From positions 3,201,001-3,265,000 of the forward strand of contig JAVHKY010000030.1 of assembly GCA_035079385.1 (NCBI GenBank): 64,000 nucleotides of DNA, read 5' to 3'. Positions 1-36,031 of the stretch are shown in pieces (the first letter of the stretch is position 1; each line of letters begins with the position of its first letter). Made by a program: the position numbers and the translations under genes. Source of the stretch: Aspidiotus rigidus (Eukaryota > Arthropoda > Insecta > Hemiptera > Diaspididae). The notes beneath the pieces are model-generated. The model ran no database searches and was not told the origin of the DNA. It was given only the letters and a program-made list of their open reading frames with translations.

Positions 1-3000
1 TTTCGGCATATTTTTCGCTCAAATTCTCTAAAATTGAAGAATCCAATGCCTCACCGGCTAAAATTACGCATCTTAATGTATTAGACTGCAAAGTATCATC
101 TTTTCCTTGCATAAAAATCTTGAATGCTGAAGGCGTTTGACAGAGAATATTGACGTTAGAGTTGCAGACCCACTTATAGAGATTAAGTGCTGAACGACTG
201 ATGTCATGAGGTAGAATTAATAATTGACCACCAACATGTAAAGCTCCCCACATTTCCCATACAGAAACATCAAAAGAAAATGAGTGGAAAAGACACCACT
301 TATCTTGTTTGCTGAACTTGAATATTCCTTGAGTTGTGTCAAAAAGTCGTGTTAGATTTCGATGCTCAATCATTACTCCTTTTGGTCTACCTGTTGAACC
401 AGATGTGTAGATGATATAAGCAAGATGATTCCGATTTGAATGTGCAGTAAACGTTTGTGGATTTTGAGTGGATAATTTTCCCGGCAAGGGTTTATCTAAA
501 TTTATGGTAGGTATTTTAGTAACACCTAGCGCAGCTTGACCAATTTCATCAACCAACAGCCAAGCTGGTTCTGCATCTTCGAGTACATTGTTAAGTCGTT
601 CACAAGGATATGTCGGGTCGAGTGGTATGTACGCTCCACCAGCTTTAAATACGCCTAGAATTGCTACAATCATATTAAAGCTACGCGTCAAACAAAGAAC
701 TATTCTTGTATCCGGTTTTACACCTTGTTTTATCAGATGATGGGCCAGCCTATTTGCCGCTGTATTGAGCTCAGCATAGCTTAGAGCTTCCGATCCAAAT
801 TCGAGAGCGATAGCGTTGCTATCTTTCTCTGCTTGAGCTTCAACTAGTTGGTGAATACAACAACTGCGTAATGAGTAATTAATAGGTGACTCGTTCCAGG
901 TTTCTAGAAGTAATTTTTGCTCCGATTTTGGTACTACACATAACGATCGCAGGGGTCTACTAGAGTTATGTATCAATGTATCATTCAATGATGATAGAGC
1001 TTCATGCATGTAAGCGCACACACGATTTGCCAAAATTGGGGCCACGACTTGGGCAGTTAATTTCAATCCGCTTCTATAGTCATCTACTGAAATGGTTAAT
1101 GGGAAACTGGTCCATCCTTTAGTAGCTGATATATTTACTCCCGGAAAGGATACTTGGTTCACTATTTCTCTGTGTCTATAATTAAACAACGCATTGAAAA
1201 GTGGTCGAGGAGCTTTGACACCGCTGCAGTGTTGCGCGAGTGCTAATGGCGTGTGCTTGTATTGTAACAAAGCCTGAAGCCGAGAATGTGTATCTTGTAT
1301 TGCACGTTCAACACTGGTCTGATTAACATCCAGAAGTAGCGGCAATGTATTTATCCACAACCCTAAACTACTACAATTTTTTTCTTTTCCTAATGAACGA
1401 CAAGACAAGACGGTTCCAAATATAACTTTCTCACGTCCACAAGAGGATGCCAAACACTGTGCAAATGCCAAATGACACAAACTAGCAAGACTCACACCCA
1501 AACGTTTTGCCTGCTCACGTAAACTAGTATTCAGTTCCTGAGGTAACAAACACTCTGTTTCACTCATGTTTGTCTCATCACCTGGAGCGTTATCCAAATT
1601 AAAAGGTAAGGTTGGCTCATCTACACTGGCCAACATCTTCGTGAAGAATGTTGTGTACTCGTCAAAACCAACTCTCAGACGTGCTTCAGCCACAAGGTTG
1701 CGAAAAGGAGTGGGATTCTTCAGAACATTTTTAGATTTTGTCATTATTTCTTTCACTTCGATGTGCAATATATCTATCGAACTTTGATCAAAAATCAAAT
1801 GGTGTAGAAACTGTAGAGCTACCCACCCCCCATTGTTATCCGACGCTATAACCAAACGATATAGAGGAGGTTGAGTGAGATCTAACTGACATTGTCTCGA
1901 GTCAAATTTCAATTTTAGAGGTTTTAAAATATCTCCCCCAGTTTTATCAAGTGTGACCTTATTCAGGACGGACGGCACCTTTCGCAAAACTATCTGTGCA
2001 GGTTCGTTAAGATCCTCCCAAATGAAAGCCGTACGTAGAATATCGTGTCGCTCAATCACTTTCTGAAAAGCAGCTACATAATTATGAACTGCGTCTTCGT
2101 CATCAAAGTGTACTTGAGTCATGAGTACGTAAGGATCTCCATTTCTTTCAATTATGTGGTGGTATAAAAGTCCTTGCTGCATTGGCGTCAAACCATAAAT
2201 ATCTTGGATATTGGAAATCCCTCCTGGCGTCTGCGATACGATCGCCTCGATATTATTCGGTGAAAGTTCAATTAGTGGTAGCATGTCTGGGGAAATAATT
2301 GCGCTACCTTGCTCAATTAAATTTGGTGGGACGTGAAAGAATTCAGCAGAGAGTTCAGGCGAGGATATGGTAGCGAGAGTAGGTGCTGTAAACACTTCAT
2401 GCAAAGTGGTGGTTACCTCAGCTTCGCGCAATCGTGATACCATCTGAGAAATTAGGAGTGAATCTCCTCCAAGTTCGACGAAATTGTTTTCCAGGGTGAT
2501 GTTGTCTACGCCTAGCAGAGCCATCCCAATTTCGCTGATTTTTTCTTCTCTTTCATCTTTTGATTTTTCCCATGTACGATGGACTGAAGAAGATTCAGGT
2601 TGTGAGCACGGGTTGGATTCACTGCTAATTGCTGGATGAGTGATGGTTTTTGAGTTCCAAGTTTCTGCTGTCGATAACATTTTTTGCCAAGGCCTAGAAT
2701 TCAACACATGTGTCATTTATCAAGTTTAGTTAGGTTTGCATACTTGAGCAAAGTGAACATATCATACCCTGGTAATTCTTGCATTCTGCAGCTCATTACT
2801 TTAGTAACATAAAAGTGCAACATTTTTATATTTTCAGCTACAATTTGGGTATCGGTGCCATTGTGTTCATTTTTTAAAAGTTGATTGTTACATTGTATAA
2901 TTGCGTTTATGTTTTTGGTTAGACCATCGCGAAAAGTCTGCATTTTCAATAATGAGATATATTTAATTTCCTTGCTTTTTTATTCTTCACGATTTTATAG

Positions 3001-4563
3001 GTATACACACCTGATTTTCCGCTTGTTCTTCTGTAAGGGACGGAACTGATAATACCGTGATAATCATCCATTCTGGTCTCACAATGTTCGAATCTATTCC
3101 TAGAACAATACATTCTTCGTCTCGAATATGTTTGAATATCTCATAGACATGTTCAGCATTGAACGATAAATTTTTTGGTGAGTCTTGATGGTTTTCATTT
3201 TTCCACTCAGCCTCAATTTCCCATCCTTTGTAAGTATATTTTGGTTGGTAACGACCGCACCCAACATGATCCGATTTTTCCTATTATATAAAAAAAAAAA
3301 GGTAATTGGTGGTGTTTAGATTGTTTTTAAAAATAATCATCCAATTCTACCTCATGTATTGAATTTGAATCATGGCAGTTTGAGCTCGTACATGTTTGGT
3401 CCCTCTCTTTGCAGATGTCAACAGTTTTGCACACATCTAAAATCAGATTTAGACGTTCACGAGGTCGATGTTTAGTTTTGAGCAAGATCTCTTGAATATT
3501 GGGATGATTCTACACAAAACGAGATGATTTATAGTTTTGAAATTGATCAACTTCTCATAGACACATAATACTTAGATCATTACATAAAGAATGACTGTAG
3601 TAAAACTTACAGGATTGACGAGCAATCTCGAACAGTAGAAGCATACACATTCGAGTACGGCAAGTGTTTCTGTGATCAAACCAACGTGGAAGACGGGTTT
3701 AGCGAGTTCAATGTACCCGCAGTGTCTGGAGGGCTTAGACATTTTACCGCCATTTTGTAATGACGGAAGATCCTCCAAAATTTGAGTAAATTGAGTCAAT
3801 GATGGACGACGCTGAAAGTGCAGACAAAAATTGATTTAATATTTGAATAGCAGGGAAGTATGAAGTCATACGAGGCAAAAGAGTCGTCCCTTCTTCACGT
3901 TATTCAAAATACCGAATTCTCGTTCATTTAAACATATAAGGAAAAATTTTGGCCAACGTCATTTTTTTGCCACACCGTCCATATTACCTCCTTCCTTTAC
4001 TTTTTGTATCAGACAAAGGGTACTAGAATATGCAGTGAGATGACGGATACTGACTCAGTCTTGCTTTTTAGTCATTCCTCGACTCACTCTTCACACACCT
4101 GAGTTCTCTACTACATCTCATTTTTTGAGACGTGTCACTGAAGAACCCGTGTCGTTTATATATTTCACTGTGAATTTGAAAAACCCGTGAAACTACGAGA
4201 TGATGTGTCGGTAATTGTGAGAAATTTTCTCATCAATACATCTTTCTCAATATCCAAGTCTGAAGCTGAGGAGTTTTCATATTTTGCCGAAATAACTCTT
4301 ATTAGGTAATTTGGATCAAATTCTTCTGTATATTTATCCTTTGAACCATAATGATGATAGGCACTCATATAACTAAAGGTCGGAGTTTTCAAGCTCGACG
4401 AGATCATAGATGTTGCTCGAGAATTCGATTTTTCAAGTTTTTATTAAAAAATGTAAAAAATAAGCTAGTTCATATTGGAATCTCGTGTAAAATTACTTAC
4501 GATCTTCGCAGGAGATGGTAGATTGAATGGCCACAAAACCTGCTCAACACCTCCTGATTGCAT
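1..4563 (-). CDS. RPB1-like / nonribosomal peptide synthetase chimera (3' end off window)
   Basis: Six exons read on the minus strand: 4563-4501, 3811-3611, 3509-3351, 3280-3011, 2937-2768 and 2693 to beyond 1, about 1186 residues visible. Every junction is GT-AG and keeps frame. Residues 1-288 follow the N-terminal clamp region of RNA polymerase II largest subunit, with matches such as [24 protein letters not shown] and VAENIKML. From about residue 294 the protein is a bacterial-style NRPS. It has a thiolation domain (LGGDSLL, pantetheine Ser366), a condensation domain (about 425-850, HHLIFDQ with H585, H586, D590) and an adenylation domain from about 905 with core motif [12 protein letters not shown] at 1050. 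The A domain is cut by the window edge. NRPS modules activate an amino acid as adenylate, tether it to the carrier and condense it into a peptide. The NRPS exon is intronless for 2.69 kb, unlike the neighbouring genes. I infer horizontal transfer from bacteria followed by fusion to host exons. It could instead be two genes sharing a transcript. Confidence 0.72.
2713..4563 (-). other. RPB1-derived 5' exons of the chimera, with alternative truncated end
   Basis: Start chosen at the ATG at 4563-4561 because the next residues, through LPSPAKIRRPSL, align with RPB1 ILSPDEIRRMSV. The copy is strongly diverged. The first zinc-binding cluster of RPB1 (CxxC...CxxH before IDLAKPVFH) has lost its cysteines. 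The second set ([17 protein letters not shown]) is kept. No stop or frameshift lies in the five exons. If the last intron (2767-2694) is not removed, the frame ends at TGA 2715-2713. The A of a new ATG opening the NRPS frame lies just before it (overlap ATGA). If it is spliced, GG|G joins as glycine and the frame runs into the NRPS. RPB1 itself is about 1,900 residues, so this cannot be a working polymerase subunit. Intron 1 is 689 nt; the others are 70-101 nt. Confidence 0.75.
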
Positions 4564-8401: not shown

Positions 8402-11400
8402 TTAAATTTCTTCGATGGATAACCAAACCTCGTTCGCTGGCTGATGGTATTGGGATCGTTTCTTTAAAACAATTGGTACTTTTGTTTTTCCATGGCGAGA
8501 AAATTTGAAACGCGAAATCATGGCTACTAAACAGACTTTAATTTGTAGTTTTGCAAAAGCTGTACCTGGTAAAAAATAAAATAAAAATCGATTATTTGTA
8601 AATGGTATGCAAAATGTTCCTCTATTCTTTGAAGATTAAAAACACAATCATCATAGTTGTACCTATCATTAAAGACTTACTCACCTATACACATTCTGGG
8701 TCCACTGCCGAACGGTTGGTACGCTTTTGGATTTATTTGTGGCAAATTCGACTTTGAGAATCGTTCAGGATCAAATTTTGAAGGATTTGGGAAATGATTT
8801 TCATCTTTATGTAAAGCTGAAATCGAGTATAAAATTAGTTCGCCAGGCTTTATTTTCAGCGATGAACCAGGTACTTGATACGCTTCATTGCATAATCTAA
8901 CGTTGAAGTTGCTAGGTCCGTGTATTCTTAAGAGTTCTAACAAACAGAAAAAATACCTTAAATTTATACACGATGGCTCACATGAAAGCATACTGCTGAA
9001 ATAGATCCAGCAGGTCGAATGAAGAGAAATTCTCCCATAGACCGTCTCCTTTTTTTATCAACTTATTTTTCTGATTTTATTTAAGAAAGAAATGTCTCTT
9101 TTATACTACCTCCTTTTCGAGTATTCCTCTTTAGAAGTATTTTTTGAAGAGCAATCCAATGATACATTGTAGAAGTCAAACTGGAATAATTTTGCCAATT
9201 TCTCAAAATAGTATAAGCTGGACTTCTAATTAGATTTACCTATTTACCTGATAGGAACATTTCCAGATAATCGATGTTTATTATGGTATTGTAATCCATG
9301 TATCCGCCATTAGCTTCACGAGCTTTTTCTATTTCTCGTCTTAATTTTTCTTGAATTTCGGGATGCATAGTCAATTCGTACAGGGCAAAAGTGAGCGAGC
9401 TCGATGCGGGATCGTGACCGGCAAAATAAAATATGAACATATTCGAAGCTATGTGATTTTCAGTAAACAAGTCTGTAAGAAATAACGAGCAAGAAAAAAA
9501 TGAGTTTCACATTTGTATTCACGGAGAACCAGTTCTATAAGGGGGATTATTTCGAAAAATTTGCCGGATGTCCAACCAGAACAAAAATAGTCCAAGTACA
9601 ACATTATTGAAGAAATGGTTCAAGTCCCCCTCTTGTCATATATAGCTTGGATTGGACTTGGAAAAATATCGATTCTCGAGCCATATATGATAGGAAAGGA
9701 ACTTGGAAAAATTCAATTTGATAGGAGAGGCACCAAGTCCTACATTATTGGTAAAAATTGTTCAAGTCCCCTTCCTATCATATTATAGCACAGACTGGAA
9801 TTAAAAAAATTTCGACTCTCGGGCCATTTTTATACATGGTTGACAAATTATTATTAGCATATGTATAAGAGATGACCGTCTTTTTTTGAGCAAGCTAGCC
9901 TTGAGAGAAGTAAATTATCCTCAAAATATTATTCCTTCCCTCCCCCTGCAGCTCAATGTGCAAAGCTCTTGTATTATGGTGCTTTATATAATTATAAGGT
10001 ATACAGAATTGTACAAAATGAATGCGAGGGTGCTTCATTGCAAGTGTTATTCAGTACTGTTCATTTTCTTCAAGTTGGTTATTGATTTGTGTCATATGTC
10101 TGTGGACTGGATGGGATGTCAACCAACAATTTGTAACAAATTTAGTGACCCCGTCTACAGAAACCAGGCTTAGCGTTGAATATCGATCAGGAGAAAAGGA
10201 TCTTTTACAAAGGAAAGAAGATTCCTTTTCTTCTGATTGTAATTGAACACTAAGCCGGATTTCTGTAGACGGGTTCGCAATTTTTGAACGCAATAAGGAA
10301 GACTTAGAAACATTTTAACCTCAACTCAAGGTTTAGTTGGAAGATATAAAAAAATCTGGATCTGTTTTTTTTTTTTACATCCAACCGCATAACACAGTAA
10401 AACAAATTTTTATGGAGCCTATATAAATATCAATAGTGAGACTTGGTAAAATTTTTATTTCTCTACTTTGATTCAAGGTTATGGGAAAGGGGCTTATAAG
10501 AAGTTCAACTTTTAGCTATATAGATGTCAATATTGAGACTGGGTAGGGAACTTGATAGTGTAAGAACTGGATAGTGATATACTACGTATCATAGTGTACA
10601 ATAGACATAGACAAATGAACGGACCATAGACATAAAAGAGTCTAATTTACAATGTTACACATATCATATATTCTGTGCAATGTATGTTGGGCATGACCAT
10701 ATGACCTAGAGCAGAGGGGACCCCAAAAAACATATGATCTAATTTTTTTCATACAGTGGAGAAATTACTGTCTTTTTTTGTTTAACTACTCTGTCTCCCT
10801 CACCTTTACTATAATACTGCATTTAATGATATGTTCCCGTTATATCCATAAATAATCAAGTTCAAAGCGGAACCCTGCCATGAAACATTAAGCTATCCTA
10901 AATTGTAAGCGCAAACCTATTTGGACTTGTCAGAGCAGTGGCGCGCTAGCGTCGCCACCTCGCATGCATCCTACAGTTGATAAGAACAACCAATAGGTTT
11001 GCAATAACCCGTTTCCTGTGTTCTTCCAAATGTCATCGCGGACTCCGGCGAACGACCGAAGGACTGACTTTTGTGCGTCGCATCGCTTGGCGACCTTTGA
11101 CTATATAGTACTTTGTATGGACTGCGCTAATGCGTGTTAACGCTCGTTGAAAAGTGGTAACAATATCTCTTTCAGTCACTTTGGCGGCAACGTTAATCAA
11201 ATGGCAGCTCTCAGTCACGTTGGCGGGGCGACGTGTTTTTAAACGGGCGAGATCTCACTAACACTTTTTCAAGGGCTTCGCGCAGTCCATACAAAGCATA
11301 TCTATAGTCAAAGTTGGCGACTCGCGAGTTTATTCTATGTGACCGAGATGGGGTAACGCGTCTGTTTAGCGAGTAAGAGTGATGCCGCGGGACTTTAAAA

Positions 11401-14400
11401 TATTTTCGTACTTCTTGGACTTGTAAAATTTTTATTTTCAATTCTTAGACTTTGAAATAATCTCATACTTCTTGGACTTGGAATTATTTTCCAATTGTTG
11501 GACTTGGAAATATTTTCCACTGTTGGATTTTGAAATATCTTCAACTGTTGAACTTGGAATTATTTTCAATTTGTAGAACTTTGAAATATTTTCCAATTGT
11601 TAGACTTTGAAATATTTTCATACTTCTTGGACTTGTAAAATTCTTCATTTTTTGATTGTCTCCCACAGTTGAAAATATTTCTAAATCCAAGAATTGAAAA
11701 TGAAAAATTTTACAAGTCCAAGAAGTCCGAAAATTTTTCGAAGTCCCGCGGTATCACTCTTACTCGCCTCTTACTCCGACTATGGCAGTAAACCGACGCG
11801 TTACCCCATCCCGGTTACATAAAAAATAAACTCGCAAGTCGGTCGTTCGGTCGTTTGCGGGAGTCCGCGGTGATATTTGGAAGAATGGAAACGGGTTATG
11901 GCAATAGAATTCACCATGTATCCTACAGTTGATAGGAACAACCAATAGCATTACCTACAAATAACGTCCACTAGATGTCGCCACTGTCAGATCACAATAG
12001 TCGGCATAACTTGGAGTTTCCAGTTTCCACGGTTGGTAGCCCTGTGTATAAAGGTGGTCATGGTTCAATTTGTATATCTCCAAACAGTTTTTCAATTCTG
12101 GTTTCCAATTTAAGTATGAGCTTTAGAAAAAATTGTTTATTTCAAAAAATGTTCTTTCGAAAATTCTCTACAACTTTGATTCTCACACTGTTCTTGATTA
12201 AAAGTCAAATCAGTTCAGAAAATGCGTTTGAACTAACGCATATATTATTTGGTTCATAAGAAAAAAATCCATGATCATCTTTGTAACTAGCGCTATCTAG
12301 TGTAGGTTACTTCGCCTATTATAAGTAAGCGAATAAGAATAAACATACTGAGTAAACTACAGATGTGACCAAGGATGAGAAAAAGGATCTTGGTGGGTAA
12401 AAAAATTGATTTTTCCAGATTACACCATGTGAAAGAGCGTGAGAAATTATGTAAAGAGCTATCATAAATAGGAAAATTGATTTTTTGCCCACTAAGGTCC
12501 CTTTTCTCATCCTTGGTCACGGCTTACATAGGCACGTGGCAGCGTGTCCCAAACAATTCGCGGAACCGTTCGAGTCCGCACGAACTAGGTTAAGATCGTG
12601 TCAAGAGTCGCGATCGCGTCGCAAGGTGCGCTATAATCGTAACATTCTGTCTTTGAAGAACTGTACTTGAATTTTTTTGCTATTTGTACATGTATGGTCC
12701 CTGCGTTATTTTAGTGTAATTTTTAGTAATTCTCAGTATGATGGGTAATCTTATCTTGAAATGCCATTTTGATCGTAGTATGAAGGGTTTTACAATGTAA
12801 AATATCTCAGCTATAATGGGTTTGCTCAATAAGTAGTCGTAAACAGAGCCATGATTTTGCTTTTTTCAACTGTCGCTGTAATCATCTTTCCCAGTTTTAA
12901 CAGCTATATTTCAACCAAAGTGCCTAGAAAAATATTCCTGATGTAATAAGGATTTATTACAGGGAAAATAACCCCAGTCAGAATTGTACGTGAAAGGTAG
13001 AAAAACGAGTATTTCTTTTCAGGACTTACGTGAAGTTTTGTGATTATCTTCGTCTCTAATATCTAGCATTAATTGGAGAAAATCTCCTCGATGTTCCGAC
13101 TCTTTTTGACGCAACTTTTCGGCGTCGTGTAACAAATTGAAGAAAAAATCCTCCATCTCTTTGGTTGTTGCTTTCAAGCCAAACCATTTCAACAATCCCG
13201 GGTTCAAGGCCAACAGAGTTTTTCTCATAATGCTCTTTACTCCGTTATCGCTCATCATTTTCCCGACTTTACGGTATAGAGAATCAGATTCCTCCAAGGT
13301 GTTAAATTCCAAACCAAACGCGCATTTGCCAATAACATCCAAAGCAAATCTAGCTATGACCTCCTTCACGTCCACAGCTTTGCCAGCTTTGCAGCGAGGT
13401 CTAAAAATGAAAATCGAACAAAGAATAAAAATACGAAAATTTGGTTTCTTGATTGTGTATCTACAGATTTATCTGAATATTTGCATTTATTTCATGTGGA
13501 TGAAACAAGAAGTTCACTAAAAATTCATTCCCACCAGTAGGCTAGTCTTAATGATTGTCGCGGTTTTCTTGAGAGAATTATTGACACCTTTAATATCTCT
13601 ATTGAACTTTCTTCCTAATTTGTATCCTTTTAAAAAACTTTGTGGTCTATCACCAGAGGAACTGGATCCCCTTGAAGAAACAGACGCGTGCGAGTTTACC
13701 CATGAATACCTGGGAATTGGGATAGTGATTTCGACTTATTATCAGGAACTTGAATAACGTTTGAGGTCTACCACTGAGGAGGCTTAAGATGTGGAGTCTC
13801 TTTTCTCATGATAAGTTCCTTGTGCCGCGAGTTTGTTACTTTCAATTATTTCTTACTGTAAACTCGCACATATTATTCGTTTTCTGTAAGAACTTACTTC
13901 GAATGAATTGTATCACTTATTCGAAAATTCGTGACGTCGGCGAGTACGAAAAATTATCCTCTGTGGTGAAGAAAAGGTCATAGGTTGTTACATTACTGAC
14001 TAATTTGGTCCAGCGAAACTAAATCGCTTTGAATTCATCACATGGAGACCCTTCCTATTACCCTACAAATTTTCTCCTCAATTCTTTGACGAGGTGAGTT
14101 ATTGTCGATTTTTGTGAAACTCGTTAGCCGACCTTCTCATGGCATTCCGGTTCCTACAAACAGGCTTACAAATTCCTAACTGTTTAGATCGTATCTTTTT
14201 TTTGCACAACCCTGCCTCTCATTGGCTTTATTGATGCCTCTTACCCTGGTTGTGAGACGCAATTTAGCAGTTTTCTACGCACCTGTGTACTTGAGACGCC
14301 GGAACTTCTTTTGAGGGGAGGGAGAGGGAAGAAAAAAATTTTAGCGATGGGCGGAAGTATCTTAAGATCTTGAAAAAATTTTGCGATGAGCTGTTCGACT

Positions 14401-16319
14401 TCGTGAAAACGTTAAAATTTATAAAAATTTCCACTATTGATGTTGTTGTCTCTTCTTTCAGTTAATTGAGCTCGCAGTTGTCTAAATCATTGCTTCATAT
14501 TGAATAAATATCTCGTGTATCAACAATAGCGTTTTTTAATTTGGGTCAAGGAAATGATACCAGAGAAAGAAGAAAAGTATTTGTAGAATATATAGTGATA
14601 GAATTTTTCCGCGTTCAATTAGGCTTGCGTCGGACAAATATTTTGAAATATACCGATTTACAAAACCGCTCGGTGATTACTCACCTGTATACTACTAGTG
14701 TTTGAGGTATTAAGCCTACAGATTCGAGAAAGCCCAATACAATGTTAATTTTTTCCATCAGAAACTCATCGAAAGCAATCGCAATAGCTGACATTCATAA
14801 GGAAAATAATGTACATCCTTATGTCTAGTAGTTAGTAATTAACTTTTACTTCTCAACAGTCGTAAATAGCCTTAGGCAGCCCCCTCGAAAGGGATTGTAA
14901 ATATCTTAGGATTACATATTTTATACGGAAAAAATGACGGCTTCCTTAACGAAGTTAAACGAGGAACGCAGGGAACCTGTTTTATGTTTCGAATGAGATT
15001 TGGTATTATCATATGGCTCGAGAGTCGAAATTTTTCCAAGTCCCTCTCCTATCATATATGGCTCGAGAGTCGAAATTTTTCTAAGTCCCCCTCCTATCAT
15101 ATATAGCTCGAGAGTCGAAATTTTTCTAAGTCCCCCTCCTATCATATATAGCTCGAGAGTCGAAATTTTTCTAAGTCCCCCTCCTATCATATATAGCTCG
15201 AGAGTCGAAATTTTTTCCAAGTCCCCCTCCTATCATATATAGCTCGAGAGTCGAAATTTTTTCTAAGTCCCCCTCCTATCATATATGGCTCGAGAGTCGA
15301 AATTTTTCTAAGTTTTTCGCTGGACGGCGGACGGCGGACGGCGCACGGCAGATTTCTCAAATAGCCCCCCATAAAACAGGTTCCCTGTTAATAATCTGTT
15401 AACACGCAGTCATCACCCGTCTCAGAATCGGCCACATCAGACTCACACATACCCATCTCATCTCTCATCTTATGCCTCTCTCATGTCCTCATTGCGAATC
15501 TGACCCCCCCCCCTATCCGTTCAACACATCTTATGCTGCCCCAACTTGATCCAACTCCGCAATTTCTTACCCATCCCTCACAACCATACAGAGGCACTAT
15601 CAGATGACTTCCCCTCCATCCCCAAAATATTCAACTTTCTACAAGAACCAAACTTCCTCTCACGCATCTAAACTCAATTTCACCGAGCTCATAGCCCCGA
15701 AGGCAGACTGCCAGCAGCTTGTAAATTAAAAACAGAAAAAGTGTACTTCAATCAGAATAGTGCATTAAATGACTGACCAGGTGTGATCTGGATCATCAAA
15801 AACAATAGCATCACGATTTTTTCAAATCTATCAACCTCACCTGAAGTGCTGTTCCACCATCATATCTGCGCACTCCTCAATTAGGGGAAACATCTTTTTT
15901 AGCTTGCTGGACGAGAAGGTAGATGATAATTTGTTTCTTACAATTTTCCATTCTTGTCCTTCTAGCGTGGCAACGCCGTACTTAAGTCGGGTTTCAACAG
16001 CGGTGAATTTTTGTCGATCGTGAAAATAGCTGAAATCTTTTATTGTTATTTGATGGATCAATTCGGGATCGCGTATGAATAAAATCGGCTTCATCATGTC
16101 ATAAATGCCAACATAATGTTCCTGTGGTTTACACCTTTTATAAATATCTTCGTATATTTCCTCTTGCAGACGACGCCCCAAGAGTAGGTCGAATGACGCC
16201 CCGAAGATTAGATTTGTGGGGACAGTAGTGACTCCGCGCTCGACCCAATAATTATTGCATTTTTTCACGTACAAACAGAACGCAATTACAGCGCATAGTA
16301 GTAAAAGAATAAAAAGCAT
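8402..16319 (-). CDS. Cytochrome P450, CYP6-like (clan 3), complete
   Basis: Five exons: 16319-15841, 13400-13030, 9472-9248, 8936-8685 and 8565-8402, giving 496 aa, the usual P450 length. All junctions are GT-AG and phases agree. It is a haem-thiolate monooxygenase anchored in the endoplasmic reticulum; CYP6 enzymes typically oxidise plant compounds and insecticides. It has an N-terminal membrane anchor (MLFILLLLCAVIAF), helix C WKIVR (W124, R128), I-helix AGHDPASS (301-308), K-helix ELLR (359-362, split by an intron), FDPERF, and haem loop PFGSGPRMCIG with ligand Cys441. An upstream in-frame TTG codon (16331) exists; I chose the ATG at 16319 because it opens directly into the anchor. Oddity: the threonine normally found in AGxxT is Pro305. 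Introns 1 (2.4 kb) and 2 (3.6 kb) are packed with repeats. CYP6 is assigned by sequence style; another clan 3 family is possible. Confidence 0.9.
9600..9840. repeat. Composite minisatellite fragment in P450 intron 2
   Basis: Degenerate copies of the 45-bp unit seen clearly at 15.0-15.3 kb (words such as ATATATGATAGGA, CTCGAGCCATATATGA, AAAATTTCGACTCT), in mixed orientation. Confidence 0.6.
10131..10282. mobile_element. Short hairpin MITE-like element
   Basis: The ends are inverted copies: CCCGTCTACAGAAACC...GGCTTAG on the left and CTAAGCC...TTTCTGTAGACGGG on the right, about 28 bp each with a few mismatches. The palindrome gives mirrored open frames on both strands that are not genes. No convincing target duplication was seen. 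Confidence 0.6.
10890..11990. repeat. Nested inverted-repeat element in P450 intron 2
   Basis: The outer arms pair about 11005-11075 with 11840-11905 (AACCCGTTTCC, TTCTTCCAAAT, GCGGACTCC, GAACGACCGAA and complements). The inner arms pair 11335-11400 with 11745-11820 (GATGGGGTAACGCGTC, GAGTAAGAGTGAT, GCGGGACTT). The core, 11400-11740, is a run of degenerate repeats around TTGGACTTTGAAATATTTTC. The flanks share ATCCTACAGTTGATA and ACAACCAATAG as direct copies near 10968 and 11920. No coding capacity. Probably a foldback-type element. Confidence 0.7.
12365..12520. mobile_element. 156-bp hairpin MITE
   Basis: About 50-bp terminal inverted repeats begin GTGACCAAGGATGAGAAAA and end with the complement TTTTCTCATCCTTGGTCAC. 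They continue imperfectly to the AAAATTGATTTTT words on each side. A ~55-bp loop separates them. It lies in P450 intron 2 and is non-coding. Confidence 0.8.
14930..15386. mobile_element. Composite MITE with 45-bp minisatellite core
   Basis: It is bounded by CAGGGAACCTGTTTTATG (about 14967) and CATAAAACAGGTTCCCTG (about 15370), an 18-bp inverted pair. The left end is preceded by GGCTTCCTTAACGAAG, which also recurs at 31.33 kb. The core (about 15005-15310) is seven copies of a 45-bp unit containing CTCGAGAGTCGAAATTTTT and CCCCCTCCTATCATATAT. Because 45 is divisible by three, the array produces false open frames on both strands. It lies in P450 intron 1. Confidence 0.8.
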
Positions 16320-17954
16320 CGCGACAATCAATATTCCAACTTTAAGCGGAACAAAAATAGACTGCGTTGATCACAGTCGGAATGTTGGATAGACTCAATA
16401 TAGAATATAATGCATGCAAGTATGATTATTTATTTTAGGTTGTACCATTTGATACAAATGAATCCAAACACAGTTGATTAAATAGCATCAAAAAAGTTCT
16501 ACATAATTTTGCAGTATACAACTACACAATGTTACTTGTAACAAAGATACTTATAGAAGAGAATCTGGCGAGCATCGGTAGAGTTGAACAGAGGCGTAGT
16601 TCTACTTTTTCTTTTCTCTCTCACCTCTCTACTCGCAGTTTTCTAAGGAAATGAATAATTGGTGTAAGGAAAAAATGCAGGATACACGTAACTACTGTGT
16701 CTATTGAAAGAAGTTAGCGTACATCATAATAATGTTTTGCAAGGGTCACACATGATTAGTGTGCACGTTATTCAAATATCTAAGTAAGTAAAAAATATTG
16801 ACGTTTGAAGTATCATAACGAGGACGAATTTGGAAGAAAGGCGTCCCTTTAATGTTTCTTCTATTGAACGCATAGCCTTATGTCGACCACTGAAAAGGAA
16901 ACAAATTTTTTGAGCTATGAAAGGGGAGAAACTTTGAAAAATTTCAACCATCTAGTTTTAAATGTGCACAAGAGGGAAATTAACTAGTAGTCCAGGAAAA
17001 ATGGAATTCAGGACAAAGGTCTCCCTGCTGAAATTTGTTCCTTGTGTTCGTTTGTACATGGTGAAAGTTCATCGCCCCTAAATCCATGAAAGGCATGAAC
17101 GTGTGTAAAATTTTGGTTTTTCACATTTTTATGCTTCCTAGCGAAAAATATAACGATACAAAAACTGTCCCTCATGAAATTTCTGGTAATTTGATACCGT
17201 ATTTGACCCCTAAACGTTGAACGCTTTAGACTGAAAGACGTGGCAACTTGTGGACAATCCTGTTTTTCGGTTCATATGTACAAGTAAAGACACAAAATAT
17301 TCTGTTTTTTTTTTTTTTTTTTCTCGAGAAATATGCTCCCTAGTGAAAATTATAGGTCACAAAAGTTGCTCCTCATAAAATTTCCTGTAATTTGAAACTA
17401 TATTTGACCCCTCAAAGTTGAACGCTTCAAGCTGTAGGGGCTGATGACTTATAAAAAATTATTTACCTTCTCTTTCTGTGGATTTTACCGAGCAACATAC
17501 GAACAAACTAGCTATTAATTAGTCTTTTGAGATGAGCCCAACCTACAAAAATGCTGAAATTGGAATTTGTTGAAATTGAGTTCTTGTGGCACTCCATAAT
17601 AATAAAGGTAAAACCTTCTGTCCTGATTTTTAAATCTCATGATAATGAAGATGAAGAATTGAAGACACAGCTTTTTTCCATTAATTCTCCTTTCTCCAGT
17701 ATTTTGTGCAAGCCTTATGTTTCCTTCTATTACACATGTGAAAAAATTATAAACTTTTGAAATGAATGTGAACTAGCAAAACTGTTTCTAGGAGTATTTT
17801 TCACGCTGAACACAATGCCATTGACCGTTTTTTTACTATCTCCTCTAGCTTTCTTACAAATTGTAAAAATTACTTGACACTGACACTTTTGGAATACTGT
17901 ATTGTATCATTACAAACCCAAAACGAAGTATACAGTAGTGTTGCTCATATTTTC
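16320..17954. other. Upstream region of the P450; one direct repeat, no gene
   Basis: The 5' flank of the P450. A degenerate direct repeat of about 95 bp is present near 17140-17232 and 17342-17432 (shared words TTTGACCCCT and GTTGAACGCTT). A 20-T run lies near 17303. No gene or clear TATA box was found. Confidence 0.5.
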
Positions 17955-34187: not shown

Positions 34188-36031
34188 TCATTTCTTATCC
34201 CATTTTACATCAGATCCATTACCAACATCCTTGCTGTTAAATCGTCGGTATTTATTGACGACCATTTCGTCATTGTTGAAATCATAATCGTTTTTGGTTT
34301 GATACCCATAATATTGTCCTCGTTTGTTGCTAGAACCGGTATCGTACTGGCGAAGGGGGACCTCGTCGTAAGAAGGTCGGTCAACTAGATTGAAACCGGT
34401 ACTTCCGACGTGCGTTTGGTCGTATCTCTCCTGATGAGTGAAAAAATCATCTTTGTTGTCTCCGGCATCACTTCTCCAATCATCAAACTTCAGAAGATTT
34501 TCTTGGTGAGATTCTCGATCACTTTTCAAGTTGTGAAAATTGAGAAGACTTTCGTGGTGAGATTCTCGATCACTTCTCAAATCATCGAACTTGAGAAGAT
34601 TATCGTGGTGAGATTCTCGATCACTTTTCAAGTTGTCAAAATTGAGAAGACTTTCGTGGTGAGATTCTCGATCACTTCTCAAATCATCGAACTTGAGAAG
34701 ATTATCGTGGTGAGATTCTCGATCACTTTTCCAATCATCGAACTTGAGAACATTTTCGTTAGATGACCCTCGATCACTTCCATCAAACACAAGTGTTAGT
34801 TTTTCTTCTTTGACTTGAGAGTCTTTTCTATTGAAGCTCTTATTTCTAGCAGTGTTGTTCACTCCCAGTCCGAAAAGATCAGCATCAATATTTCCAACAT
34901 TCATTGACTCTAGATCAATTTTGTCATATTTAGGATTTCCCGAACTGTCTTGAGAGCTATCAACACTATCAAACTTGGGTTTATTTTCTGGAATGTGGGT
35001 AGAGGAACCTGAGTTTTGCTGATGGGCAGTCGATCCTATATTGTCCTCATTTGTGGTCGTCCGAGTGGTTGTTTGAATAAGATTTTTGTTTGTATGATCA
35101 TCTCCATCTCCTTGATTATCGTGAGAGTTATTACCATTGTCGTATGATGGTTTATCATCTGGGGGATTGGAAGAGAAGCTCGTTGTTTGTTGATGCGCTG
35201 CCGATCTCTTGCTGTCGTTGTGCGAGGAAACATTTAAATTTTGAGTGAGACCATCTCTTCGGGAAGAATCAGTCAAATTACCTGATGCTTGCCTATCCAC
35301 GTTCGACCTCTGCACTGAAAAATTGTTACTTCCAGCTTTTTTGTCGTTTTCTTGAGGCAACTCGTCGCCATCATCATAATCATCCCATTTTGGTTGACTC
35401 ACTGGTTTCTCAAGAGAGGAAGATCTCGTTTCTTGCTGATTGCTCTTAGACTCACTTTGACCGAACCAACCCAGCAATCCGCTTTTCTTCGGTTTCACAA
35501 TCGTTACAATTATAGTCCTGGTATTTGATTTGGAACTTTTATCGCGTAAGTATATTGTTGGAATAGTCGGACACTCGCAAGCTTTCACGAACAGTGATTT
35601 GCAAAGAGATTTGGTGAGCTTGTAAGTTGTGGCTACAGAGACGTCTTCGTTGGCTTTAAATTCAAAACCTTGAGCTCGATACTCCTTTTTTACAGCTTTC
35701 ACAGCGTCTTTACACACCGTTTCCAATCGTAAGAAGGTCATGCTACAAACTTCACTTGTAGTACTTATTGTTTTACGAGGCTCTAGAATACAAAAATACG
35801 TCCTTTAGTGACTCTTTTGAGGTTAGCATGGTTGTATAGTCGAGGTCGATGGTTCGATAAAGACGAAAGAAAAGTGTCTGAAATTTGAAAATTTAGTACT
35901 CGCGCTTTATCATTACCTTTAACCATTTTTTTTGCCTTTTCTACTTCATAGTTGAGTTGAGGTGCACAAGTGACGATCATGCTAATTAATGTTCTTGATA
36001 CAAAAAATATTGAAACAAATTTCCAGTCCAT
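34188..36031 (-). CDS. Secreted 569-aa acidic protein with 17-residue tandem repeats, unknown function
   Basis: Two exons, 36031-35917 and 35782-34188, joined by a 134-nt GT-AG intron in phase 1. The start is the ATG at 36031, which opens a signal-like hydrophobic N-terminus (VSIFFVSRTLISMIV then TCAPQ). Roughly the first 140 residues form a small cysteine-containing domain (CAPQ, EVCSM, TVCKD, SLCK, KACECP). A low-complexity Ser/Asn/Asp/Gln-rich middle follows, then six tandem copies of a 17-residue unit (consensus SDRESHHDNLLKFDDLR) and a Tyr/Asp-rich tail. I do not recognise the family. The architecture fits an extracellular matrix, cuticle-associated or salivary protein, which is inference. 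The next gene upstream is far away, so it is a single transcription unit. An ATG at 35741 would give a shorter protein lacking the signal. Confidence 0.8.
34473..34778 (-). repeat. Six 51-bp coding repeats
   Basis: Six head-to-tail 51-bp units encode SDR(E/G)S...LL(K/N)F(D/H)(D/N)(L/W)(K/R). Units 2 and 4, and 3 and 5, are more alike than neighbours. This implies a 102-bp dimer was duplicated, probably recently because the third positions agree closely. The antisense strand is also open. Confidence 0.85.

Follow-up and report, generated by a model that had tools for sequence, protein, structure and literature searches.

A family of nonribosomal peptide synthetase genes with RPB1-derived 5' exons in the genome of Aspidiotus rigidus

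The 64,000-nucleotide (nt) stretch of Aspidiotus rigidus DNA analysed here (the window; C30:3201001-3265000, on contig JAVHKY010000030.1 of assembly GCA_035079385.1) carries, at 4563-1 of its minus strand, the beginning of a gene in which five exons derived from RPB1, a subunit of RNA polymerase II, are followed by a 74-nt phase-2 intron and by the start of a nonribosomal peptide synthetase (NRPS) exon (Table 1). An initial annotation, made from the letters of the window, had described five RPB1-like exons ending GG/GTATGA at 2768, an intron closing on TTCTAG/G (slashes mark splice sites) that restores a glycine codon and admits the NRPS frame, and a carrier-condensation-adenylation (T-C-A) order behind it. 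All of these features are present where they were described, and Pfam names the three domains PP-binding, Condensation and AMP-binding. The separate comparison of the two halves that it proposed leads from the RPB1 half to RPB1 chains of RNA polymerase II (Pol II) and from the NRPS half to NRPSs of gall midges.

Table 1. Exons, junction intron and NRPS domains of the fusion gene within the window
Feature	Position in window	Strand	Remarks
Exon 1	4501..4563	-	ATG start, 21 codons; phase 0 donor (GTAAGT) at the position of RPB1 intron 1
Exon 2	3611..3811	-	RPB1 exons 2 and 3 merged; the phase-1 intron of the canonical gene is absent, as is part of the first zinc loop; contains CVCFYC
Exon 3	3351..3509	-	RPB1 exon 4
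Exon 4	3011..3280	-	RPB1 exon 5; contains GCGRYQP; PF04997 match by itself, E 2e-15
Exon 5	2768..2937	-	RPB1 exon 6; C-terminal ELPG, phase 2
Junction intron	2694..2767	-	74 nt, phase 2, GTATGA...TTCTAG, at the RPB1 GLPR/AMQKS position
Exon 6	1..2693	-	A few RPB1 exon-7-like codons (PWQKM), then NRPS; runs beyond the window to C30:3183050
Phosphopantetheine (T) domain	2363..2521	-	PF00550; GGDS
Condensation (C) domain	908..2206	-	PF00668
Adenylation (A) domain, N-terminal part	8..841	-	PF00501; remainder beyond the window

The NRPS part is a single intronless coding exon of 20,644 nt (C30:3183050-3203693), very long by the standards of animal genes, that ends in a thioesterase and a TGA stop; the complete gene model has 7,169 amino acids (aa). 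Its spliced N-terminus matches PF04997 (RNA_pol_Rpb1_1) with 154 bits over residues 44-287, a PP-binding domain follows directly, and the closest solved structures are Pol II RPB1 chains (E 4.2e-66). The corresponding N-terminus at a second locus, C13, scores 166 bits. In both spliced models the RPB1 clamp domain (domain 1) is present and shares one open frame with the NRPS, while the catalytic and later domains of RPB1 are absent from the fusions, since the frame enters the NRPS within exon 7. Exon 1 of the window copy shows weak RPB1 likeness by itself and was accepted because of its intron position and because of exon 1 in the paralogues (MANSK...SPEEI, against MADSK...PPDEI in RPB1).

Searching the genome (441 Mb in 102 contigs) with the PF04997 profile gave 22 matches, which fall on two RPB1 genes (on contigs C37 and C5), on genes that resemble RPA1 and RPC1 by sequence reading, on a decayed fragment on C72, and on five loci where RPB1 exons stand ahead of NRPS frames. 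These lie on five contigs of 3.5-22.7 Mb and are named after them: C30 (the window), C33, C13, C35 and C4. A search with PF00668, in which 20 candidates were scored and whose counts are lower bounds, placed all 19 condensation matches inside the same five genes; with that bound, it found no condensation-domain gene lacking an RPB1 part. The genome thus holds a family of at least five fusion genes. At the four loci outside the window the exon order and phases are those of C30, the introns differ, and the exons again lead into NRPS frames. The C72 fragment (C72:8039500-8049499) consists of decayed RPB1 exons with internal stops, has no condensation match and lies near a frame that reads as reverse-transcriptase-like; it is perhaps a dead member of the family.

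The domain order of the window gene is T-(C-A-T)x6-TE (TE, thioesterase), with six C and six A domains by profile and seven T domains, six recognized by motif and the first by Pfam; this repetition of condensation, adenylation and carrier domains is that of a multimodular NRPS. C35 has the order (A-T-C)x4-A-T-TE, C13 and C33 both read A-T-C-A-T-C without TE, and C4 has five A and four C domains. The window copy lacks the first A domain, which the other four copies place right after the RPB1 part, and its NRPS begins with T for that reason. The condensation motif HHxxxD is present in 6/6 C domains of C30, 2/2 of C13 and 1/2 of C33 (the other has HHxxxE), and was seen with the search pattern in 2/4 of C35. 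The residue after the motif, usually G, is Q or H in the C domains of C30. A thioesterase motif, GYSSGG (GxSxG), occurs in C30 and C35 and in neither C13 nor C33. At C4:19351900-19356500 one C domain contains a frame change and another a stop, and the RPB1 part lacks one zinc-ligand cysteine; this locus is either a decaying copy or an assembly error.

The introns of the fusion genes connect them to the RPB1 genes of the same genome. Across its first seven exons the canonical RPB1 gene on C37 has introns of phases 0, 1, 0, 0, 0 and 2, and the exon limits of the C5 gene agree. Each of the 28 introns modelled in the fusion genes matches a host RPB1 intron in position and phase: all six in C13, C35 and C4, the last five in C33, whose model covers exon 2 onward, and five in C30, where intron 2 is missing and exons 2 and 3 have merged, with a deletion. 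The intron at the fusion junction is itself the host RPB1 intron GLPR/AMQKS, phase 2. The initial annotation had noticed that RPB1-like residues continue past this intron. That holds clearly for two paralogues (LPR/PMQK and LAR/PMQK) and in part for the window (PWQKM), but is not evident in C35 and C4: RPMQKL (C33, C13) and GPWQKM (C30) resemble RAMQKS of RPB1, while EKGSKL (C35, C4) hardly does. A W-N-x-T linker, of the type found at NRPS C-A junctions, comes next. Because residues past the intron are RPB1-like, the DNA join lies a few codons into RPB1 exon 7. At the other end, the N-terminus of C13, C35 and C4 reads MANSK, against MADSK in RPB1.

A tree of the RPB1 part (34 rows, including 27 of the 120 RPB1 matches listed; exon 1 omitted for C33, C35 and C4) unites the five fusions in one clade (support 100), which joins both host RPB1 genes (97) and not those of other insects; the RPB1-derived interval thus has tree-supported metazoan ancestry. 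This single clade with host RPB1 points to one old fusion, followed by duplication. The RPB1 parts of different fusion clades are 41-44% identical to one another and 45-50% identical to RPB1, and their synonymous sites are saturated or nearly so. With the long branches, this implies that the fusion and the first duplications are old; C13/C33 and C35/C4 form the younger paralogue pairs. Gene structure, a single origin from host RPB1 and duplication can accordingly be read from sequence comparison.

In each of their first seven exons the two host RPB1 genes, on C37 and C5, are 91-100% identical in protein; they differ in the length of intron 3 and match each other at the DNA level over 5,954 and 1,181 bases (90% and 83%). 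The C37 gene matches about 1,559 RPB1 residues. Its first 390 residues are 88% identical to RPB1 of Macrosteles, 87% to Clastoptera, 86% to a lacewing and 85% to ants, with one further record at 89%; Hemiptera and that further record also lead across the roughly 1,559 residues. In the RPB1 tree the host genes and this record group apart (98) without joining Hemiptera, and the margin in percent identity is small, so that by RPB1 a hemipteran host is probable. A gall midge, to which the NRPS matches had pointed, was rejected as host on these identities.

The ancestry of the NRPS part was approached with domain trees (FastTree, midpoint-rooted), for which 54 proteins were chosen from 355 top-match proteins; filtered by length, these gave 42 C and 47 A domains. 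The fusion genes contributed 19 of 20 A and 16 of 18 C domains; those excluded belong to C4, namely one A domain and both broken C domains. Their A domains form one clade (0.986), as do their C domains, and the modules thus multiplied within this lineage. Sister to the fusion domains are NRPS domains of gall midges together with record P0030 (joint node 0.989 for C, 1.0 for A), and in this top-match sample the fusion and gall-midge domains stand apart from the sampled bacteria and fungi. As regards a possible non-metazoan ancestry of the NRPS interval, its domains are bacterial-type and intronless, and its nearest sampled clade comes from other insects, followed by bacteria and fungi. The initial annotation had a bacterial NRPS entering a duplicated RPB1 locus and taking over its promoter, exons and start codon. 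The fusion itself, in frame and with the 5' part of a duplicated RPB1, stands; capture of the RPB1 promoter and direct entry of a bacterial gene are hypothetical. With gall-midge NRPSs as the nearest sampled relatives, the NRPS may already have been an insect gene at the time of the fusion. One related source may have supplied both this insect and the gall midges, or the NRPS may have moved between insects. Gall midges carry many NRPS-like genes annotated only as uncharacterized, in Contarinia nasturtii and Sitodiplosis mosellana (P0001, P0005, P0011, P0020, P0022, P0248, P0250, P0251, P0253, P0255 and P0259 among the matches), and a literature search combining gall midges with nonribosomal peptides returned nothing related by title.

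Selection was estimated in the two younger pairs as the ratio of nonsynonymous to synonymous substitution rates (dN/dS; NG86), with the NRPS part restricted to its first 6,000 nt. For the RPB1 part the ratio is 0.43 (bootstrap 0.27-0.75; 284 codons) in one pair and 0.36 (0.22-0.60; 278 codons) in the other, and a value of 1 or more was reached in 0 of 1,000 bootstraps in each; for the NRPS part it is lower, 0.27 and 0.24. Exons showed no insertions or deletions in ten comparisons, against 1-15 in seven of nine aligned introns, the tenth intron differing about five-fold in length. In a neutral simulation of 318 RPB1 codons, none of 500 frames stayed open at 0.5 substitutions per site. Four cysteines, which we take to be the second clamp zinc site, are all kept in C30, C13, C33 and C35 and are broken in C4, the copy whose NRPS is broken too; the first clamp zinc site, as we assign it, is incomplete in all five copies. 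By these comparisons the RPB1 part is under purifying selection and is kept as protein, and the ratios show selection on both the RPB1 and the NRPS parts.

We consider it very probable, therefore, that the window gene belongs to a set of five or more NRPS chimeras, in which the 5' part of host RPB1 was fused to an NRPS, duplicated, and is expressed as a single protein. In the ancestral event, a genomic join within exon 7 would have linked an RPB1 copy, contributing its start codon, exons 1-6 and the exon 7 acceptor, with the beginning of a multimodular NRPS free of introns, at a C-A linker. The fused gene would then have duplicated at least four times, with modules multiplied and lost. Transcription by the host, with removal of six RPB1 introns (five in the window copy), would give a single protein with about 290 residues of the RPB1 clamp core ahead of an assembly line. 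The product of that line would be a nonribosomal peptide, set free by the terminal thioesterase in copies that have one. Transcription, the single protein, its enzymatic product and the role of the RPB1 domain are here what we infer from the genes. Capture of a housekeeping 5' end would explain, on this proposal, how an intronless foreign gene came to be expressed: the RPB1 part would first have been a ready-made cassette for expression and translation start. Its later constraint implies that the fragment now matters for the protein; the simplest role is that of a folded N-terminal domain, and as such it is probably retained. A stronger version, in which the clamp core functions as the N-terminal domain in a family of animal NRPSs (aiding their folding, the docking of partners or their cellular placement) and all condensation-domain NRPSs found here radiated from one chimera, we hold only tentatively, as possible rather than probable. 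That the clamp still contacts the transcription machinery, tying peptide synthesis to the nucleus, is conjecture.

Several observations weigh against this reading. The first T domain of the window gene has no partner in cis, its A domain having been lost; the last domain of both C13 and C33 is a condensation domain, with no thioesterase to follow, and one C domain of C33 has HHxxxE; and the NRPS part of C4 is interrupted by its frame change and stop. Within the young pairs, short introns resemble each other roughly as closely as exons do (0.88-0.96), and three of them are unchanged in length (72, 75 and 84 nt), for which reason the lack of exon insertions and deletions is weak evidence by itself. 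Splice sites were placed by hand and eye, under the constraints of GT-AG and reading frame, and the exon-3 donor of C13 and C33 (GTTTGA) is weak. The fusion branches are long in the RPB1 tree, where their placement needs caution, and any role given to the RPB1 part is conjectural.

The RPB1 exons might instead serve as a 5' leader, providing a promoter and spliced leader while translation begins at a methionine within the NRPS exon. Capture of expression is a plausible first benefit, and an ATG does occur shortly after the join in exon 6 of the window; however, the dN/dS of the RPB1 part lies clearly below 1 in both close pairs, frames and phases have been kept in five copies despite synonymous divergence at or near saturation, and three copies retain the RPB1-type start MANSK, so that we regard this as unlikely. 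It is more improbable still that two neighbouring units are being read as one, an independent NRPS gene preceded, by chance in the same frame, by a pseudogene fragment of RPB1. Decayed RPB1 exons with stops do exist in the genome, on C72, yet the same arrangement and phase recur at five loci, with frames open through the junction and under selection.

An assembly artefact or bacterial contamination deserves mention, NRPSs in animal assemblies being often contaminants: in the main text of a survey of animal NRPSs, 199 of 772 clusters passed the check (PMC10531068). For the present gene we find this scarcely credible. Divergent copies lie on five contigs of megabase size, introns stand at host RPB1 positions, and the window contig (9.5 Mb) has animal neighbour genes, among them P450 exons in the window and, beyond the NRPS, a carboxypeptidase-like gene (named by sequence reading). 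Animal neighbours, a continuous NRPS frame and a matching base composition (GC 0.397 in the NRPS part, 0.387 locally) make both contamination and a chance join unlikely, as the initial annotation had held; the four further loci of the same exon order and phases, and a junction intron identical in position to that of host RPB1, bear it out.

Horizontal gene transfer chimeras, or HGT-chimeras, in which a single frame holds one interval of metazoan and one of horizontally acquired sequence, have been described as a class: the main text of Kapoor et al. (PNAS 2026, PMC13389597) gives 104 origins for them among 319 arthropod genomes. Their examples include oskar and a damselfly anoctamin-ABC chimera, and for many of them duplication of the host or acquired gene and purifying selection are reported. 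The fusions resemble these chimeras in joining a metazoan interval, in one frame, to a putatively acquired one, and differ from the chimeras as described there in having five paralogues and a putatively acquired part of up to about 6,900 aa; that main text, supplements apart, makes no mention of NRPS, ribosomal peptide, RNA polymerase, synthetase, adenylation or RPB1. Like the animal NRPSs of nematodes, rotifers, Plectus and the springtail ACVS (PMC10531068), the fusions are multimodular and lie in an animal genome; the main text of that survey does not mention RNA polymerase, Hemiptera or Diptera.

Single-module animal NRPSs of the Ebony/ACSF4 type differ from the fusions, which have condensation domains and several modules. 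The gall-midge genes (for example Contarinia nasturtii LOC116350245 and Sitodiplosis mosellana LOC129565992) hold the nearest sampled A and C domains, in a joint clade; many of their database models are partial, and among the matches listed none has an RPB1 part, the 5' ends of the genes falling outside the comparison. With RPB1 the fusions share residues about 1-320 (the clamp core) and the places of the introns, and three copies share its start as well; unlike RPB1, their frame enters the NRPS and the later domains are gone. Literature searches on NRPSs with insects, Hemiptera, gall midges or fusions listed no report of an RPB1-NRPS fusion. In one protein search for relatives, the best 120 of 346 matches were all RPB1-type, none with an NRPS domain; in a second, with 7,933 matches of 7,986 scored, none of the best 120 has PF04997 together with an NRPS domain. 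One strong match, P0241, was set aside as a relative: by sequence reading it repeats a stretch of A domain and contains nothing of RPB1. HGT-chimeras are known as a class, and the pairing of RPB1 with an NRPS was not seen in the literature, as represented by these main texts and searches, or among the protein matches listed.

The family offers a testable case of a very large bacterial-type biosynthetic gene turned into an animal gene by way of the 5' part of a housekeeping gene, with introns retained. Part of RNA polymerase II, it suggests, can persist for long within an unrelated enzyme. It also suggests that insects may have nuclear gene families of their own for making nonribosomal peptides, absent from the main text of the existing survey (PMC10531068).

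Elsewhere in the window, a 538-aa open frame on the minus strand (34188-35804) is built of repeated SDRESHHDNLLKFDDL-like units and has no Pfam match at E 0.001. Near the fusion gene, also on the minus strand, three open frames at 8677-16370 match cytochrome P450.

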